From the IMG/VR virus record IMGVR_UViG_3300047409_000416, positions 1-44,584 of that record: 44,584 nucleotides of DNA, one strand, 5' to 3'. Under the pieces are notes generated by a model. The model ran no database searches. It had not been told where the DNA came from and saw nothing but the letters and a program-made list of their open reading frames with translations. Source of the stretch: a virus. A program made the translations under genes and the position numbers. This document shows, one piece after another, positions 513 to 40,845 of this stretch (its first letter is position 1; the number at the start of each line of letters is the position of its first letter).

Positions 513-756
513 CGACGCCCTCGCCGCCACCCTCAAGCCGTTGGTGAAAAAGATGGTGGAGGAGGAGGTCGAGCGGGCCGGGTTCCGCTGGACATGGATG
601 ACGCCGAAGAAAGCGGGGGAGCTTCTCGGGGTCAGCGACTCGGCGATCCGCAAGCGGGCCCGCGCCGGTCGCATCCCCGCCCGGATCGAAGATGGGAGAA
701 TCTACGTGGACATGCGCGCCTACGACGAGCAGCTACAGCGGGCCGAGCAGCTATGA
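499..756 (+). CDS. MerR/excisionase-type helix-turn-helix protein
   Basis: 85 aa, GTG start inside the end of the previous gene. After an N-terminal acidic helix, residues about 33-72 read as a DNA-binding domain of the excisionase/MerR type: MTPKKAGELLGVSDSAIRKR followed by ARAGRIPAR and a short wing (DGRIYVDMRAY). Such domains are used by phage excisionases (recombination directionality factors) and by small repressors. Its position in the run of genes leading to the integrase makes an excisionase role attractive, but a transcriptional role fits equally. The TGA stop is the first codon of the first copy of the repeated linker. Confidence 0.75.
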   Translation: MTQLDDALAATLKPLVKKMVEEEVERAGFRWTWMTPKKAGELLGVSDSAIRKRARAGRIPARIEDGRIYVDMRAYDEQLQRAEQL

Positions 757-799
757 CCGGCCTAGCGGATCAGAACCAGGCTTCTAGGCGGGAAGCGTG
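754..799 (+). repeat. Intercistronic linker copy 1 (40-nt type)
   Basis: Runs from the TGA stop of the HTH gene to the GTG start of the next gene, with exactly 40 nt between the codons. Core GCCTAGCGGATCAGAACC, then TTCTAGGCGGGAAGC before GTGAGC. GCCTAG and CTAGGC form a 6-bp inverted repeat around the core. GGCGGG six nt before the start may act as a weak ribosome-binding site. Confidence 0.85.
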
Positions 800-1039
800 A
801 GCGCGGCAGACCAGGAGGCCGCGATCCGTAAGGCGTTGAGCCGCGAGAAGCCAGGCACGCTTGCCTATGACCGTGACCAGACCGCGCTCGCTGCGCTTGC
901 AGCGTTAGCCGCGCAGATTCCGCAGACACCCGAGGCGTGTCTGACGCGGGCCGTCGAACTGGACGGCAACAGCTGTTTCCCTCACTCGCTAACCGACGAG
1001 ATAGAGCGGTACCTGGTGGAGTGGAAGGTGGCGACGTGA
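797..1039 (+). CDS. Hypothetical small protein in linker array
   Basis: 80 aa, GTG start (GTGAGC) supplied by linker copy 1; TGA stop begins linker copy 2. Helix-rich with an Ala/Leu run (TALAALAALAAQIP) around residues 28-41. No family recognised and no membrane segment. Reality is supported by the precise fit between two linker copies of equal length. Confidence 0.6.
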   Translation: MSAADQEAAIRKALSREKPGTLAYDRDQTALAALAALAAQIPQTPEACLTRAVELDGNSCFPHSLTDEIERYLVEWKVAT

Positions 1040-1082
1040 CCCGCCTAGCGGATCAGAACGAGCGTTCGAGGCGGGAAGCGTG
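1037..1082 (+). repeat. Intercistronic linker copy 2 (40-nt type)
   Basis: TGA to GTG distance is again exactly 40 nt. CCCGCCT and AGGCGGG give a 7-bp inverted repeat, with an inner GAAC/GTTC stem around a GAGC loop. Ends in GGGAAGC-GTGAGC. Confidence 0.85.
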
Positions 1083-1625
1083 AGCCGCGAGGACAACCCT
1101 CGTCTCGTCAGTCGGCAGACCTACTGGATCGAGTTCGCTGCGTGGGCCTCCGGGCAAACCAGCGGCCCGATCTGTACCGAGTGCGCCGCCGTGATGCCGG
1201 ACGCCGAGTTCGTCGGCGCGTTCGTGTGCGAGGAGTGCGCTCCTTATGTCTCGGATCAGAACTGGTGTAAACGGCGGGAAGCACCCGGAAAGATTTACAA
1301 ACAGACCGTTACCAAGACGGCCGATCTCCCCATACCTAATGAAAGGCCCCGCGACGTTGAAGCGTCCGGGGCCCACGACATGACGGAGGTGACCGCCATG
1401 CAAGACAAGACTACTGCCCTTCGCGTCCGGGTCACGTACTCGACCGACTGCCCTGAGTGGTGGCGTATCCAGATTCGCCGGAAGCTCGGAAGGCAAGGAC
1501 TCGCTACGCGCTCTGAATGCGTGGACTGGCTCAGGCGTTACGGCGAGTCCGAGGACGACAACCTTGCCCTCGCATATGAACGCTGGCAGCAGGCTGCCGA
1601 GGAAGGCGAGACGGTCGGTGGCTGA
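1080..1625 (+). CDS. Zinc-ribbon-containing hypothetical protein, possibly two fused genes
   Basis: 181 aa from the linker-supplied GTG. The N-terminal module (residues about 30-58) has paired CxxC motifs (ICTECAAVM and FVCEECAPY), a likely zinc ribbon. Residues about 58-68 are encoded by a decayed linker copy (1251-1284) read in frame. A strong hairpin (GGCCCCG paired with CGGGGCC, about 1346-1372) lies inside the frame, followed by GGAGGTGACCGCC-ATG at 1398. The C-terminal 75 aa could therefore be a separate gene, 1398-1625. The frame is open throughout, so a single translated fusion is possible. Function unknown. Confidence 0.55.
   Translation: MSREDNPRLVSRQTYWIEFAAWASGQTSGPICTECAAVMPDAEFVGAFVCEECAPYVSDQNWCKRREAPGKIYKQTVTKTADLPIPNERPRDVEASGAHDMTEVTAMQDKTTALRVRVTYSTDCPEWWRIQIRRKLGRQGLATRSECVDWLRRYGESEDDNLALAYERWQQAAEEGETVGG
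1251..1284 (+). repeat. Degenerate linker copy 3 inside a reading frame
   Basis: TCGGATCAGAACTGGTGTAA then ACGGCGGGAAGC: a hybrid of the 40-nt and 34-nt linker types. The first nucleotides and the GTGAGC start are missing, and the sequence is translated in frame within the 1080-1625 gene. Looks like a former gene boundary. Confidence 0.7.
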
Positions 1626-1845
1626 CTACGGAAACCCGACCCCGGACGAGGAAGTCGTGCCGCTCGGTCACGCCCTGACGCTGGAGGAGTGGGACGCGCT
1701 CACACCCGAGGCGCAGGACGCCCTGATTGCTAGTGGCTGGCATCCCTACGGGGTAGGCCCGCTAGGCCCACAACCAGGTGAGCCGCCGCCGACCGGGCCG
1801 TGGGCTTGGCACCCGAGCCAGCATACGACGGGCGGGCAGTCGTGA
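1618..1845 (+). CDS. Hypothetical acidic/proline-rich protein
   Basis: 75 aa using GTG at 1618, which overlaps the upstream TGA (1623-1625) and has GAGGAAGG upstream. An earlier start at 1564 would lie entirely in the previous gene. An acidic helical N-terminal half (LTLEEWDALTPEAQDALIAS) precedes a Pro/Gly/Trp-rich tail (GPLGPQPGEPPPTGPWAW). No family recognised. The TGA stop opens linker copy 4. Confidence 0.55.
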   Translation: MADYGNPTPDEEVVPLGHALTLEEWDALTPEAQDALIASGWHPYGVGPLGPQPGEPPPTGPWAWHPSQHTTGGQS

Positions 1846-1882
1846 CTCGCCTAGCGGATTCGAACTGGTGTGAACGGCCGTG
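1843..1882 (+). repeat. Intercistronic linker copy 4 (34-nt type)
   Basis: TGA to GTG distance exactly 34 nt. Core GCCTAGCGGATTCGAACTGG then TGTGAACGGCC and GTGAGC. Shares the first half with the 40-nt type but has a different second half and no GGCGGG. Confidence 0.85.
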
Positions 1883-1999
1883 AGCGCCTCGTTCGCCACT
1901 TCGGAGTGGCCGTTGGTGCTCGGTGCGCTCGTCCCTGTGGCCCCGTTCCTGGTCCTGTTCGCGGTCTACTGGTTCGGCACCCCGAAGGACAAGCGATGA
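1880..1999 (+). CDS. 39-aa single-pass membrane microprotein
   Basis: GTG start at the end of linker copy 4 and TGA stop opening linker copy 5. The translation begins MSASFATSEWP, has one hydrophobic segment (residues about 12-31, LVLGALVPVAPFLVLFAVYW) and ends in a positive tail (GTPKDKR), predicting an N-out/C-in membrane helix. Both ends coincide with linker copies of the standard lengths, which supports a real gene. Function unknown. Confidence 0.65.
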   Translation: MSASFATSEWPLVLGALVPVAPFLVLFAVYWFGTPKDKR

Positions 2000-2042
2000 C
2001 CCGCTTAGCGGATCAGAACTGGCGTTCAAGGCGGGAAGCGTG
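1997..2042 (+). repeat. Intercistronic linker copy 5 (40-nt type)
   Basis: TGA to GTG distance exactly 40 nt. CCCGCTT pairs with AAGGCGGG through a G-U wobble where the other copies have a C-G pair, and GAAC/GTTC forms the inner stem. The hairpin is kept despite base changes. Confidence 0.85.
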
Positions 2043-2321
2043 AGCAGCGTAAGTGTGTTCGCGGTCAGCCAGTTCGGCCCGATTCTCTCCACCCGATCTA
2101 AGGGTGTCCGGGCTGCCGAGGCGCTCTCCGTGTTCGCCGCCGAGCATGACGGGCTGGTCGAGGTGAGTTTTGCGGGATGCAAGGTCGCATCACCGCCCTT
2201 CATGCAGGAGTTGACTAGGGCCTGCCGCTCGCTCGGCGACCGGATCATTTATTCGTGCCTAAACGAGGATGTAAACGCGACTCTGACCTACGTTGAGGCA
2301 ACTTGGAGGCGACTCGCGTGA
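2040..2321 (+). CDS. STAS-like (DUF4325-type) domain protein
   Basis: 93 aa, GTG start from linker copy 5. The pattern resembles STAS-like DUF4325 domains: an N-terminal strand (VSVFAVSQFGPILSTRS), a central LVEVSFAGCKVASPPFMQEL segment where the family has a 'vDFxgVxxxssxFxdeL' motif, then DRIIYSCLNEDVNATL matching the family's strand and NLNxDV-like segment. These small domains occur alone or beside histidine-kinase-like proteins; their function in phages is unknown. The assignment comes from pattern memory only. Confidence 0.6.
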   Translation: MSSVSVFAVSQFGPILSTRSKGVRAAEALSVFAAEHDGLVEVSFAGCKVASPPFMQELTRACRSLGDRIIYSCLNEDVNATLTYVEATWRRLA

Positions 2322-2358
2322 GCCGCCTAGCGGATTCGAACTGGTGTGAACGGCCGTG
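2319..2358 (+). repeat. Intercistronic linker copy 6 (34-nt type)
   Basis: TGA to GTG distance exactly 34 nt and nearly identical to copy 4 over its whole length (GCCTAGCGGATTCGAACTGG, TGTGAACGGCC, GTGAGC). Confidence 0.85.
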
Positions 2359-2535
2359 AGCACCGACCTGCGTGAAGCACTCGCAGACCTCATCGAGGCC
2401 GTCGATTCCGTTTGCCAGTCCGACGTGGCAACCAGCGAGCCGACACTCGAACCACATGCTCGCTCCGTGCTGGAGCTTGCGCTTCAGCGCGCCCGCACCG
2501 CCCTAGCGGACTCGTACTGGTGTTACCGGCCGTGA
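2356..2535 (+). CDS. 59-aa hypothetical protein whose C-terminus is encoded by a linker copy
   Basis: GTG start from linker copy 6. A helical, acidic protein (MSTDLREALADLIEAVDSV near the start). The last 12 residues (ALADSYWCYRP region) are encoded by linker copy 7 read in frame, and the TGA stop is the TGA of that copy's GTGA. No family recognised. It is the last gene before the integrase. Confidence 0.5.
   Translation: MSTDLREALADLIEAVDSVCQSDVATSEPTLEPHARSVLELALQRARTALADSYWCYRP
2499..2535 (+). repeat. Terminal linker copy 7 (34-nt type), read in frame
   Basis: CCGCCCTAGCGGACTCGTAC then TGGTGTTACCGGCCGTGA: matches copies 4 and 6 with several substitutions. There is no upstream stop at its left end, and its GTG would start only a five-codon frame, so it marks the decayed end of the array. 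Confidence 0.75.
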
Positions 2536-2607: not shown

Positions 2608-3921
2608 ATGGCTCGCCAACCATCTCAGCCTGTCCTCGACGGGCACGGAAACCGCATCAAAGGCCTGAGTTACCGCGAGACCGCGCGTAGCGGCCGCGTC
2701 TACGAGTCCGTCGTCTATGACCACGGAAGCTCCCCGCGGCGCGTCCCGCTCGCCGCCAAAACCCAGAAGGACGCGACCGCCGAGCACAAGGCCTTGCAAC
2801 TCGCCGAGCAGATTCGCAAGGCAAGACCGAGCACACAACCTCGGAAGCGTCTCACTCTCAGCGAGGCCGCCGAGCGCTACTTCACCGCGACCGAGGGGTT
2901 TATCGCCAGAGCCGAGACGGAGGGCATCCCCGACGACTACAAGGGGGTCACGTCAATCGACACCCTCAACGGCTACCGGACGAACTGGCTCAACTGGATC
3001 GAGCCATGGTTCCGCGGCCGGACCCAATGCCGCGAGGTGACGACCGCCAGCTGCCAGGAGTTCTTCGCTCATCTCCGCAGGCAGCCTGGCCGCACCGGCA
3101 AGACGCTCGCCGAGGGGACGATCAACTCGGTCAAGAGCGCGCTCTCCGCGATCCTCGAAGAGGCGAGGGTGGCCGGAGGGCTCGACACCGACCCTCTCGC
3201 CGGGCTCTCAAAGCGGGACCGGCCGAAGACGAAGCCGCGCAAGAGCTACCGCAAGGTGGCCGTCCGGCCCGAGGTTCTGTACGCGATCTTCGAGAACGCC
3301 GCCCGCGGCTACAAGAAAGCTCTTGTCGCGATGGCTGTCTTCACCGGCATGAGGGCGGGCGAGATCGTCGCGCTCAAATGGGAAGACCTCCGCTTCGACG
3401 AGGCCCAGCCCTACGTCTGGATCGCCCACTCGCTCGCCCGTGACGGCTCGCGGAAGGGAACGAAGACCGGGAAGGAGCGGCCGTTCCCACTCAATCCTGA
3501 GACCGTGGAAGCCCTCCAGGCGCATCGTGAGACCGAACGCGAGCGTGGGCTCGGGCGCGACGACGATTACGTCTTCACGCGGCCGTTCGCGCGAGGCGGG
3601 TTCGGCAAGCCCGTTGGTCGCCGCGTCGTCCTCGACGCCGTGGTGGACGCCTGCGAGGGGCTAGGACTCGCCGATGGCAAGGGCGAGCCCATCGCCTCGA
3701 TCGACGTCAGGGCCGCCCGGCGCTCCGTCGCGACCTGGCTCGCGAACGAGCCCTCCCTGCCGCGCAACGTGGCGGCTGGGCAGATGGGGCACTCGGTCGA
3801 GACGGCCGAGCGCGAGTACGTTCAACGCCACCACGACGCCCAGGAAATCGAGATGGTCGGCATGGTGATCCGCCGCCCGACCCTCACGGTCATCGAGGGC
3901 GGGCAGGCTCAGACCGCGTAG
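2608..3921 (+). CDS. int: Tyrosine recombinase, phage integrase
   Basis: 437 aa, ATG behind GAAGGAG. Catalyses site-specific recombination between attP and a host attB. Residues about 1-75 are arm-binding-like, about 80-215 core-binding (LTLSEAAERYF onward), and about 220-437 catalytic. Visible catalytic elements are R249 in FTGMRAGEIVALKW, a Lys in the KGTKTGKERPFPL hairpin, R371 in the box II region, H395 in MGHSVETAE and the nucleophile Y404 in AEREYVQ. The usual box II His (HxxR) is replaced by Arg (R368), a tolerated change in the family. A terminator and attP lie immediately downstream. Length and domain order are typical of phage integrases. Confidence 0.96.
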   Translation: MARQPSQPVLDGHGNRIKGLSYRETARSGRVYESVVYDHGSSPRRVPLAAKTQKDATAEHKALQLAEQIRKARPSTQPRKRLTLSEAAERYFTATEGFIARAETEGIPDDYKGVTSIDTLNGYRTNWLNWIEPWFRGRTQCREVTTASCQEFFAHLRRQPGRTGKTLAEGTINSVKSALSAILEEARVAGGLDTDPLAGLSKRDRPKTKPRKSYRKVAVRPEVLYAIFENAARGYKKALVAMAVFTGMRAGEIVALKWEDLRFDEAQPYVWIAHSLARDGSRKGTKTGKERPFPLNPETVEALQAHRETERERGLGRDDDYVFTRPFARGGFGKPVGRRVVLDAVVDACEGLGLADGKGEPIASIDVRAARRSVATWLANEPSLPRNVAAGQMGHSVETAEREYVQRHHDAQEIEMVGMVIRRPTLTVIEGGQAQTA

Positions 3922-4083: not shown

Positions 4084-4124
4084 AGCGGGTGAAGGGAATC
4101 GAACCCTCATCTCCAGCTTGGGAA
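4084..4124 (-). other. attP: attP core: 3' half of tRNA-Gly(CCC)
   Basis: On the minus strand this reads TTCCCAAGCTGG, then GAGGGTTCGATTCCCTTC and ACCCGCT: anticodon loop with CCC, a full T-arm (GAGGG-TTCGATT-CCCTT type) and the 3' acceptor strand of a tRNA-Gly. The 5' half of a tRNA is absent; sequence beyond the anticodon loop does not pair with the anticodon stem. Phages that integrate into tRNA genes carry exactly such a 3' half so that integration rebuilds the tRNA. Position directly beside int supports attP. Confidence 0.85.
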
Positions 4125-4162
4125 AGTGACTGGACGTAAAACTGGGCGGGCCTCCTGAGGAT

Positions 4163-32545: not shown

Positions 32546-33044
32546 CGCCCCTCCCTCCGTTACACAAACCAGGCCAGCCCCCGCGCCTGGCTCGGAAGTG
32601 CAGCGCAGAGGAGTCACGGGCTGCGGCCCCCGCCTGGCCTGGAACCACAAGGCAACCAGGCCTCGGCGGGCCCGCCAGGGGCACGGAGGACGCTCATGAC
32701 CTCAACCCCAGCAGGCCCGCCCAAGCCAGGCCACCACAGCCATCTTCACAAGCAACCAAGCCAAAACCAAGCCCACAGCCACGATCGGGCGCCAGGCTCA
32801 CAGCCAAGCCAAAACTGACAGCCACGATGGGGCGGGGGTACGTAGAGGGGTCCCGTGCGCGCGCGCCCGCGCGGGGGGGAGGGCGGGTGCCCGGCCGGGC
32901 GGGCGCGGAAAAGGCTCGCGCGCAGCCCGCGCGAAAGGCCGCGCGCAAGACGCGCGATCCTCTCTCCCCTCAAAGCCACGAGCCTAGCCCCCACCTGGCC
33001 CCTGCCTCGCAAAGCCTGTATCCATGCGGCCTAGCGGGAGGGCC
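32546..33044. other. Non-coding, repeat- and palindrome-rich region
   Basis: About 500 nt without a credible gene. Contains a near-duplicated unit (AAGCCAAAAC followed by ACAGCCACGATSGGGCG) at 32758-32791 and 32806-32834, then a very GC-rich set of overlapping palindromes (GCGCGCGCCCGCGC, GCCCGGCCGGGC, CGCGCAGCCCGCGCG, GCCGCGCGC) at about 32856-32960. Candidate packaging (cos/pac) or replication-origin region; no function shown. Confidence 0.45.
32758..32834 (+). repeat. Two direct copies of AAGCCAAAAC...ACAGCCACGATSGGGCG
   Basis: Copies at 32758-32791 and 32806-32834, 48 nt apart, differing in the length of the middle part. Iteron-like arrangement. Confidence 0.7.
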
Positions 33045-34827: not shown

Positions 34828-36123
34828 ATGTCTAAGCAAGACGCATACGACCTCGTTACGGCCCGCATCATCGAAGCCCTCGACGCAGGCATCGTCCCCT
34901 GGCATCGCCCCTGGAAGACCGGGCCGAACGCGGGTCCGATGTCCTACTCGACCCGGAAGCCCTACTCCGGCGTCAACGTCTGGGTACTGACCGCTACGGC
35001 CGCCCTACGGAACTACGACTCGCGCTACTGGGTCACGTTCAAGAGCGCGATCGACGCGGGCGGGAACGTACGCAAAGGCGAGAAGGGTACGCCGGTCGTC
35101 TTCTGGAAGATCATCGAGAAGACCGACAAAGCCACGGGCGAGACCGAACGTTTCCCGCTCCTACGCTACTCGACGGTCTTCAACCTCGACCAATGCGAGA
35201 ACGTGGCCGAGCCCGAGACCGTTACAGAGTTCGAGCCCGAGCCGTTCACGCCGATCGAGATCGCCGAGCGGATCGCGAACGCGATGCCGACACGGCCGAA
35301 CGTCAAGCATGGAGGCGACCGGGCCTACTACAGCCCCGCGCTCGACTACGTGCAGATGCCGCTTACCGTGCAGTTCGAGAGCCCCGAGCACTACTACTCG
35401 ACGCTTTTCCACGAGCTAGTGCACTCGACCGGGCACCCGGACCGGATCGGCCGCAAGACCCTCGCCGAGCCCGCACCGTTCGGGTCCGCGGACTACTCGC
35501 GCGAGGAGCTTACCGCCGAAATGGGGGCCGCTTACCTCTGCGGCGCCGCAGGAATCGACGTCAACGTCGAGCACCACGCCAGCTACATCGCCTCATGGCT
35601 CAAAGCCCTGGAAAACGACCGCAAGATGGTCGTGTCCGCGGCCGGTGCCGCACAAAAGGCCGCCGACTACATCATCGGCGAGCCCGCGAAGAAGGAGGAG
35701 GGCTCGCAAGAGCCCTCCGACCTCGGTCACTCAACCTTTAGGAGGAAAACATGCCCTACATGGACACCCACGCCGAGACCGTCAAGCGCTACGACGTCCC
35801 CGGAAAGTGTCACGTCGTCATCTCCGACTGGCCCTACGACTGCCAAGCGAAAGACGACCACCCCGACCACGTTGTCTACATCTGCGAGACGCACCGCGTT
35901 TGGTGGCACGAGCCCGACTGGCAGCCCGCCGACGCTTAGAGGATCGCCCGCCACCCGCGGGCCCTCGGTCACTTACCTAAGGAGGATTCACCATGACAAG
36001 CGAGATGCTCCGCGAGGAGCTATTCGGCCGCACGCAAGGGCTCGTGGCTCGGGCCCGCGATCGCGGACACGACCTGCACCTCTGGCACGCCGACACGAGC
36101 TACTCGCACCACACCGCTTGTAG
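34828..36123 (+). CDS. ArdC-like antirestriction protein with out-of-frame C-terminal extension
   Basis: Open frame of 431 aa. Residues 1-130 match the ArdC N-terminal ssDNA-binding domain (SKQDAYDLVTARIIEALDAG; VPWHRPWKTGPNAGPMSYST; KPYSGVNVWVLT). Residues about 150-295 form a zinc metalloprotease-like domain with FHELVHSTGH (H195, E196, H199) and downstream E231 in ELTAEMGAAYL as a third ligand. ArdC proteins protect incoming DNA from restriction. The natural end should be near residue 290 (AADYIIGEPAKK). Beyond it the frame runs on through the next hairpin element and two other genes with no stop until 36123, giving a low-complexity S/T/R/P tail. A lost stop or a sequencing error is likely. 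Confidence 0.85.
   Translation: MSKQDAYDLVTARIIEALDAGIVPWHRPWKTGPNAGPMSYSTRKPYSGVNVWVLTATAALRNYDSRYWVTFKSAIDAGGNVRKGEKGTPVVFWKIIEKTDKATGETERFPLLRYSTVFNLDQCENVAEPETVTEFEPEPFTPIEIAERIANAMPTRPNVKHGGDRAYYSPALDYVQMPLTVQFESPEHYYSTLFHELVHSTGHPDRIGRKTLAEPAPFGSADYSREELTAEMGAAYLCGAAGIDVNVEHHASYIASWLKALENDRKMVVSAAGAAQKAADYIIGEPAKKEEGSQEPSDLGHSTFRRKTCPTWTPTPRPSSATTSPESVTSSSPTGPTTAKRKTTTPTTLSTSARRTAFGGTSPTGSPPTLRGSPATRGPSVTYLRRIHHDKRDAPRGAIRPHARARGSGPRSRTRPAPLARRHELLAPHRL
35697..35745 (+). promoter_or_regulatory. Start-associated composite element
   Basis: Hairpin GAGGGCTC-GCAA-GAGCCCTC (35697-35718), CTCGGTCACTCAACC (35722-35736), then AGGAGGAAAAC before ATG 35751. The element lies inside the read-through frame of the ArdC-like gene. 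Confidence 0.87.
35751..35939 (+). CDS. Hypothetical early protein
   Basis: 62 aa. PYMDTHAETVKRYDVPGKCH then DCQAKDDHPDHVVYICETHR and WWHEPDW. Cys/His pattern (KCH; CETH) suggests possible metal binding. A close match of starts and elements argues that this gene, not the overlapping ArdC tail, is the real one here. Confidence 0.68.
   Translation: MPYMDTHAETVKRYDVPGKCHVVISDWPYDCQAKDDHPDHVVYICETHRVWWHEPDWQPADA
35946..35985 (+). promoter_or_regulatory. Start-associated composite element
   Basis: Hairpin CCCGC-CACCC-GCGGG (35947-35961), CTCGGTCACTTACC (35964-35977) and AAGGAGGA before ATG 35993. Confidence 0.85.
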
Positions 36124-40364: not shown

Positions 40365-40471
40365 TCGTGGCCCTCGTCTTCATGGTTGGAGTCGCCTGCG
40401 GAGCCCTTTTGAACGCCCTCTGGGATGACGTGGTGGAGCTACTCGACCTCTACCGGGAGGAGCGGCGATGA
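40361..40471 (+). CDS. 36-aa membrane microprotein
   Basis: GTG start overlapping the previous TGA, with GGGAGGAGGA upstream. One hydrophobic helix (MIVALVFMVGVACGALLNAL, residues about 2-20) then a charged tail (DDVVELLDLYREERR). TGA overlaps the next ATG. Function unknown. Confidence 0.55.
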   Translation: MIVALVFMVGVACGALLNALWDDVVELLDLYREERR

Positions 40472-40845
40472 GCGACGGGCTCTCCTCCTTCCCTGACTTC
40501 GACGGCGAGACGTACAGACGCGCGCTCGACCACGAGCGGCTCGGCGCGCAGCTACTCCGCGTGGCCCGGTTGATGGGGGACGGCGACTGGAGGACGCTCA
40601 AGCAGATCGCAAACGTCACCCTCGACCCCGAGGCGAGCATCAGCGCCCGGCTCCGCGACCTCCGTAAGCGGAAGTTCGGCGGCCACACCGTCGAGCGCAA
40701 GCGGATCGTGGGCGGCCTCTACCGCTACCGGATCGTGCTCGCCGACCGAGCCAACGATGACGACTGGGGAGACGCGAAGCCGATCCCGCCCCCGACCCCG
40801 CCGCCGCCCCCTCCCAAGCCCGTCCAGGTCAGCATCTTCCAATGA
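40468..40845 (+). CDS. Winged-helix protein with possible clamp-binding tail
   Basis: 125 aa, ATGA-coupled. Residues about 25-95 look like a winged helix (DWRTLKQIANVTLDPEASIS then ARLRDLRKRKFGGHTVERKR). The tail is Pro-rich (PIPPPTPPPPPPKP) and ends in VQVSIFQ, close to the beta-clamp-binding pattern QLxLF. Could bind DNA and the host sliding clamp. Confidence 0.68.
   Translation: MSDGLSSFPDFDGETYRRALDHERLGAQLLRVARLMGDGDWRTLKQIANVTLDPEASISARLRDLRKRKFGGHTVERKRIVGGLYRYRIVLADRANDDDWGDAKPIPPPTPPPPPPKPVQVSIFQ

Follow-up and report, generated by a model that had tools for sequence, protein, structure and literature searches.

Linkers akin to tRNA attachment sites as probable boundaries of an ordered array of single-gene cassettes in a group of temperate phages

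The tyrosine integrase gene of IMG/VR virus record IMGVR_UViG_3300047409_000416 is preceded by a row of small genes whose junctions carry near-identical linkers, and this raises the question of what such linkers are, where they came from and why they are kept. We analyzed the whole linear record of 44,584 nt (hereafter the window; G+C 66–68%) and compared it with related contigs. The answer we find probable is that the linkers are repeats derived from attachment (att) sites, that they mark the boundaries at which single-gene cassettes are exchanged, and that they also supply stop and start codons. The original prediction had described five linkers running from a TGA stop to a GTGAGC start with lengths of 40, 40, 34, 40, and 34 nt, and this is exact to the base (stops at 754, 1037, 1843, 1997, and 2319; starts at 797, 1080, 1880, 2040, and 2356). 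The two further copies it described are also present: a sixth, degenerate one at about 1240–1282 inside open reading frame (ORF) 1080–1625, and a seventh at 2495–2534 that closes the array, where ORF 2356–2535 reads through in frame and stops at the linker's own TGA. The exact motif TAGCGGATNNGAAC occurs five times in the 44.6 kb window, always within the array, against a chance mean of 0.21, and none of 100 shuffles had as many.

Gene replacement between conserved linkers

Pattern scans of viral contigs gave ten other contigs, and all of these relatives are metagenomic fragments. Nine carry the linker, namely G001 (two copies), G003 (five), G004 (five), G005 (six), G006 (eight), G007 (four), G008 (three), G009 (four), and G011 (two), which with the seven of the window makes 46 copies by the linker profile; the tenth (L007, G002) has one short-pattern match and no copy by that profile. 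The unit is TAGCGGA-N3-GAAC-N5-T-N4-GGC, gapless and 27 bp long, with a class-specific centre, and classes were assigned by the six bases at linker positions 13–18. Class 0 (CCGCTG) lies directly after the integrase gene, and the others are class 1 (CCAGGC or CCAGCG), class 2 (CGAGCG), class 3 (CTGGTG), and 3c (CTGGCG). The order 0, 1, 2, 3 is monotone in every contig, G006 being treated as a circular permutation with its integrase and class 0 at the opposite contig end; the product of possible arrangements is 1.4e11, which measures conservation of order and not independent events, since the contigs are kin.

A search for relatives through the integrase sequence found none, the class 2 linker has no match among known phages and plasmids, and the matches there to the class 3 sense linker were weak and confined to enterobacterial phages (E ~6); these we take as chance. 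We also take as chance the one linker match in a scan of genome contigs, which lies in a Terriglobia metagenome-assembled genome and has no second copy. A scan of 396 genomes from a single phylum found no copy of the class 0 pattern.

The original prediction read the genes as interchangeable modules, and the result it had named as the test, the same linker with different genes in relatives, is clearly found. An all-against-all comparison of the inter-linker segments gave just two shared cassettes. The first is a phrog_12600 gene (59% between G009 and G005) that occupies the same slot, class 2 to class 3, in both. The second is the 39-aa gene at 1880–1999 of the window, 90% identical in G006, where it lies one slot further on; the best long gene shared by these two genomes is 47% identical. 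Among the other cargo are, in G009, a Dam-type methyltransferase and, in G005, a Mom-like DNA modification protein, together with numerous small unknown proteins; PADLOC gave no match for the seven proteins submitted to it.

Nucleotide comparison likewise limits similarity within the arrays to the linkers. Outside the array, long aligned stretches of G003, G004, and G009 are 84–98% identical, whereas inside it the linkers alone align. In G003 and G009, for example, 1,021 nt of the integrase region are 93% identical and a downstream stretch of 2,019 nt is 84% identical, and between these stretches nothing aligns except the linkers, the class 0 region, and one short conserved ORF. At the class 2 linker (1035–1083) the window and G009 agree in 49 of 49 nt, their best shared long gene being 61% identical. 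Between G006 and each of G007, G009, and G004, similarity begins 3–4 nt ahead of the class 0 TAG and runs for about 55–70 nt, following integrase genes that are unrelated or distant. Similarity confined to linkers and starting just ahead of the class 0 TAG is what exchange at linkers predicts. The proposal of recombination at the linkers is supported by comparison: linker ends are where similarity breaks off, and one cassette has changed slots.

tRNA origin of the commonest class and a form like that of attachment sites

A pattern search matched a tRNA-Glu gene in antisense, and several observations place the origin of the commonest class there. Among 28 Gb of E. coli genomes the antisense class 3 linker, TCACGGCCGGTAACACCAGTTCGAATCCGCTAGGC, has two matches, both tRNA-Glu (97% covered, 88.2%), and one of two matches in a plasmid search lies inside a Curtobacterium tRNA-Glu. 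Against 54 tRNAs of 20 isotypes, of which four are tRNA-Glu, the best match is tRNA-Glu for 20 of 20 class 3 copies, although these are homologous and hence not 20 independent tests. The mean score is 17.9 in antisense and 10.4 in sense, compared with 10.77 +/- 1.38 for 4,000 other 45-mers; taken by itself, the class 3 consensus gives an empirical p of 0.0003, and the search of E. coli genomes stands as separate evidence. By their sequence, then, class 3 linkers are tRNA-Glu 3′ halves in antisense, and their GTGA start is the antisense of the anticodon-loop TCAC. Classes 1, 2, and 3c have the left half TAGCGGA in common, which suggests a tRNA derivation for classes 1 and 2 as well. As a separate observation, Mycobacteroides abscessus plasmid pGD21-1 (L125:295–335) carries what resembles a truncated 3′ half of tRNA-Glu, GTAACACCAGTTCGAATC; it is not called by ARAGORN and is possibly an att fragment.

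An antisense tRNA 3′ half near an integrase gene, the mark of tRNA-type att sites, is found in class 3 and in class 0 of G006 and G008. The latter (AGCGGTTCGAATCCGCTAGGCGCC) reads in antisense as T-stem, T-loop, T-stem, and acceptor (AGCGG-TTCGAAT-CCGCT plus acceptor in G006), and so has the sequence form of a T-loop phage attachment site (attP) core. Such a core is known from mycobacteriophage Ms6 (AGGGGTTCGAATCCCCT...; PMC1762012), which also has an antisense tRNA 3′ half just past int and the same layout of T-stem, 7-nt T-loop, and T-stem. The present system differs in having many diverged tandem copies with genes between them and in array copies whose right arm does not fully match. Around a putative 7-bp overlap the arms are symmetric at five of five pairs in class 0 (three in G007) and at one to four of five in array linkers. 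G011 also has an antisense tRNA 3′ half after its integrase gene, as does the window at about 4085–4125. We note too that the class 0 sites of L028:5959 (G003), L029, and L035 keep the arms AGCGG/CCGCT while the intervening 7-mer differs, and that this 7-mer is ATTGTTT in G003 and AACAGTT in G009 although their integrases are 96% identical.

What the linkers may do

We propose that the linkers bound a cassette array common to a group of temperate phages. By their sequence, class 3, which is the most frequent, and class 0 of G006 and G008, the copy beside the integrase, derive from antisense tRNA 3′ halves with T-loop type attP core anatomy. The comparisons show single genes between successive linkers being replaced as units, giving ordered linkers with different cargo in each phage. 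Exchange would occur by recombination at or beside linkers, most likely through the phages' own annealing/exonuclease systems acting on 40–50 nt of identity; integrase action at att-like sites would be a less likely variant. Four relatives (G003, G004, G008, and G009) encode a RecT-like annealing protein downstream of the array, and in the window there are genes for an exonuclease and for a RusA-like resolvase. Recombination of the general or annealing type is the best fit, since it would work whichever integrase a phage carries and since these proteins are present. Cassette ORFs start at +28 or +34 from the linker T, and they end with a TGA at −9 or run on to the linker's own GTGA. The linker would provide a cassette with both its TGA stop and its GTG start, the latter falling in class 3 where the tRNA has its anticodon loop, and an exchanged gene might be expressed at once.

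Several points weigh against this proposal. The tRNA likeness of classes 1, 2, and 3c is not significant, and the 39-aa cassette shared by the window and G006 has its upstream junction at the linker end, not its centre. The system is also narrow, 77 further RecT-bearing viral loci being without the linker. Exchange is deduced from comparison, with no parent–product pair observed, and descent combined with replacement of genes through other routes might explain why the order is conserved.

Could the linkers instead be working att sites? T-loop type integrases, from these phages, from satellites, or from co-resident prophages, would then insert, excise, and exchange cassettes, the central bases setting the pairing, as a phage-borne integron-like system. 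We consider this unlikely. It has in its favor the tRNA-derived, attP-like anatomy, the gapless 27-bp unit with its class-specific centre, and a class 0 beside the integrase whose perfect 5-bp arms flank a variable 7-mer. Moreover, exactly one Pfam tyrosine integrase is present in eight of nine linker-bearing relatives, the exception being the short, 7.4-kb G001. These integrases, however, fall into several groups that are mutually unrelated or distant: those of G003, G007, and G009 are 86–96% identical and those of G006 and G008 83%, those of G004, G005, and G011 are mostly about 25–37% identical to the others, and the window integrase matches none, yet the same linkers accompany them all. 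The window integrase (2608–3921, plus strand, as are the array features and the attP candidate of the window; Pfam PF00589, E 7.7e-15; no BLASTP similarity at E <= 0.01 to the integrases of relatives) follows the array and has a separate attP candidate downstream (4085–4125), an antisense tRNA 3′ half that is tRNA-Gly-like by eye. In array linkers, too, the right arm is symmetric at just one to four of five pairs, the common 7-mers are found with every class, and no circular cassette was seen. A possible role for the neighboring tyrosine recombinase, to which the original prediction pointed, gains from the att-like, tRNA-derived character of the linkers, which that prediction had not noticed, and loses by the unrelatedness of the integrases in several phages and by the separate attP candidate. 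We are slightly more doubtful of a fuller version, an integron-independent phage exchange system in which tandem tRNA-derived att sites with class-specific centres are ordered docking sites where T-loop-targeting integrases swap accessory genes (DNA methyltransferase, Mom-like modification, and others) slot by slot between temperate phages.

Another explanation that we hold improbable is a start-associated regulatory or translation element that couples translation or binds a regulator, the turnover of genes being ordinary phage mosaicism in which the linker plays no part. The exact stop and start positions (TGA at −9; GTG at +28 or +34) would suit such an element, as would the 20 nt upstream of array starts, which pair with the 16S 3′ end somewhat better than random DNA (−6.56 vs. 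−4.34 kcal/mol), and similar start-linked repeats of unknown function occur in actinophages (PMC3203893, PMC7302621). Against it, conservation extends to class 0 and to several further copies that are likewise without a start codon, the tRNA-Glu origin accounts for the class 3 GTGA without translational selection, similarity stops at the linkers, and stems show no covariation. The CCCGCCT/AGGCGGG stem of the original prediction is complete only at 1046 and, through a G-U pair, at 2006, and the argument from compensating changes fails in the relatives. Folding is no more stable in the linker copies than in shuffles (z −0.30, −1.67, and +1.07), and pairing across 43 copies is that of chance (192 paired cells vs. 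189.4 +/- 5.0), so an RNA stem element was rejected. The coupling of translation that the original prediction offered as its simpler alternative may be a by-product; it is plausible in itself, but not the main reason for linker conservation, because start-less copies are kept and no RNA stem is supported.

Two further candidates were also rejected. Coding constraint on the readable tail LADSNWCYRP is opposed by the third codon positions, which by eye are those conserved, the opposite of what selection on a protein would give, and a promoter or terminator element by the lack of any promoter-like (sigma-70 type only) or terminator-like site in the linkers. Rfam gave no match at gathering score, and none in the linkers at permissive settings.

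That the linkers are relics, inert footprints of repeated past integrations at tRNA genes with no present exchange, is very improbable: tRNA fragments beside integrases are the usual integration trace (Islander, PMC4383910), but inert repeats would decay, and an identity of 49/49 nt between genomes whose proteins are about 61% alike points to constraint or to recent exchange.

The array in the window and comparison with known systems

The array is preceded by an excisionase-like helix-turn-helix gene (499–756; Pfam HTH_17, E 3e-6; PHROG 66 excisionase, E 1.9e-6), whose own TGA opens linker 1 (757–796, 40 nt, class 1, core CCAGGC). An 80-aa cassette gene (797–1039; a weak DUF4259 match below cut-off) leads to linker 2 (1040–1079, 40 nt, class 2, core CGAGCG). 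The 181-aa ORF at 1080–1625, which probably represents two fused cassettes, reads through degenerate linker 3 (1240–1282, class 3, CTGGTG) and is followed by a cassette ORF at 1618–1845 (listed start 1564), whose GTG at 1618 overlaps the preceding stop. Linkers 4 (1846–1879) and 6 (2322–2355), both 34 nt, and linker 7, the array end, are class 3 and in antisense tRNA-Glu 3′ halves; linker 5 (2000–2039, 40 nt) is class 3c (CTGGCG). Between them lie the 39-aa gene at 1880–1999, which is membrane-type, a 93-aa gene without family match (2040–2321), and a 59-aa gene (2356–2535) whose terminus falls inside linker 7 with the tail LADSYWCYRP and then a stop. One cassette of G006 (64 aa; third-position G+C 0.88) is probably encoded on the reverse strand.

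Elsewhere in the window, a small membrane-type ORF at about 40370–40485 lies beside an exonuclease gene, far from the array; its homologue is just past the array in relatives, so the array stands at a different place in the window. The gene at 34828–36123 strongly matches phrog_7245, annotated in PHROG as an anti-restriction protein (E 2.5e-78). A GC-rich hairpin-like non-coding element (CCAGGCC...GGCCTGG) is conserved at 32560–32657 of the window, L032:8597–8683, and L028:11333–11418 (minus strand). It folds well in the two relatives (z −3.0 and −3.3) and not in the window (z −0.54); at gathering score, Rfam matches neither the window copy nor that of L028. Finally, an unrelated repeat, GCTTCTACCGCTACGGAG, at L072:1407–2040 (3300047160_007951) codes for recurring tails (..ASTATE..), and two of the gene ends show GTGA stop/start overlaps; it is possibly an independent stop/start linker.

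A parallel in position is with the start-associated sequences (SAS/ESAS) of Cluster K and Cluster EF phages (PMC3203893, PMC7302621), which are one-orientation repeats at the starts of small non-structural genes, retained although the genes differ. The linkers, too, form a conserved same-orientation repeat directly upstream of the starts of different genes. They are, however, much longer (about 40 nt), span stop to start, fall into ordered classes of which the main one is tRNA-derived, and also occupy non-start positions; their sequence differs from the 13-bp GGGATAGGAGCCC-type SAS sequence at the ribosome site (PMC3203893). PeSLs of T4-type phages (Arbiol 2010; Comeau 2014), as cited in PMC4503421, are repeated intergenic elements said to shuffle small genes, and the linkers share this shuffling between relatives. 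A PeSL, as described there, is an early promoter plus a stem-loop, and the linkers have neither a promoter or terminator match nor a supported stem. The 17-bp repeats of Cluster O mycobacteriophages (PMC4351075) are likewise intergenic, with deletions and insertions ascribed to recombination between copies, but they are palindromic, scattered genome-wide, and not tied to starts.

Integron arrays have single-gene cassettes between repeats, an adjoining tyrosine recombinase, and a start codon just past the repeat, and here too tandem single-gene cassettes between repeats vary between relatives. The linkers, in contrast, keep a class order, are tRNA-type sites, and come with neither an integron integrase nor attC boxes. 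The best of six integrases scored 78.9 bits as IntI-type (TIGR02249, cut-off 265 bits), that of the window giving no listed match, and 0 of 46 linkers has the boxes R″ (RYYYAAC) and R′ (GTTRRRY); with both tests negative, we reject integron membership. The literature searched contains no account of tRNA-derived repeats as boundaries of phage genes.

Reports of start-linked repeats in several actinophage clusters have come without an explanation; one such family is here traced to tRNA attachment-site sequence and bounds genes that are replaced one by one. Along this route, which is open to testing, temperate phages might acquire and shed small accessory genes, DNA modification genes among them, while sparing the neighboring genes and their translation, and it may be a parallel to the origin of cassette arrays.

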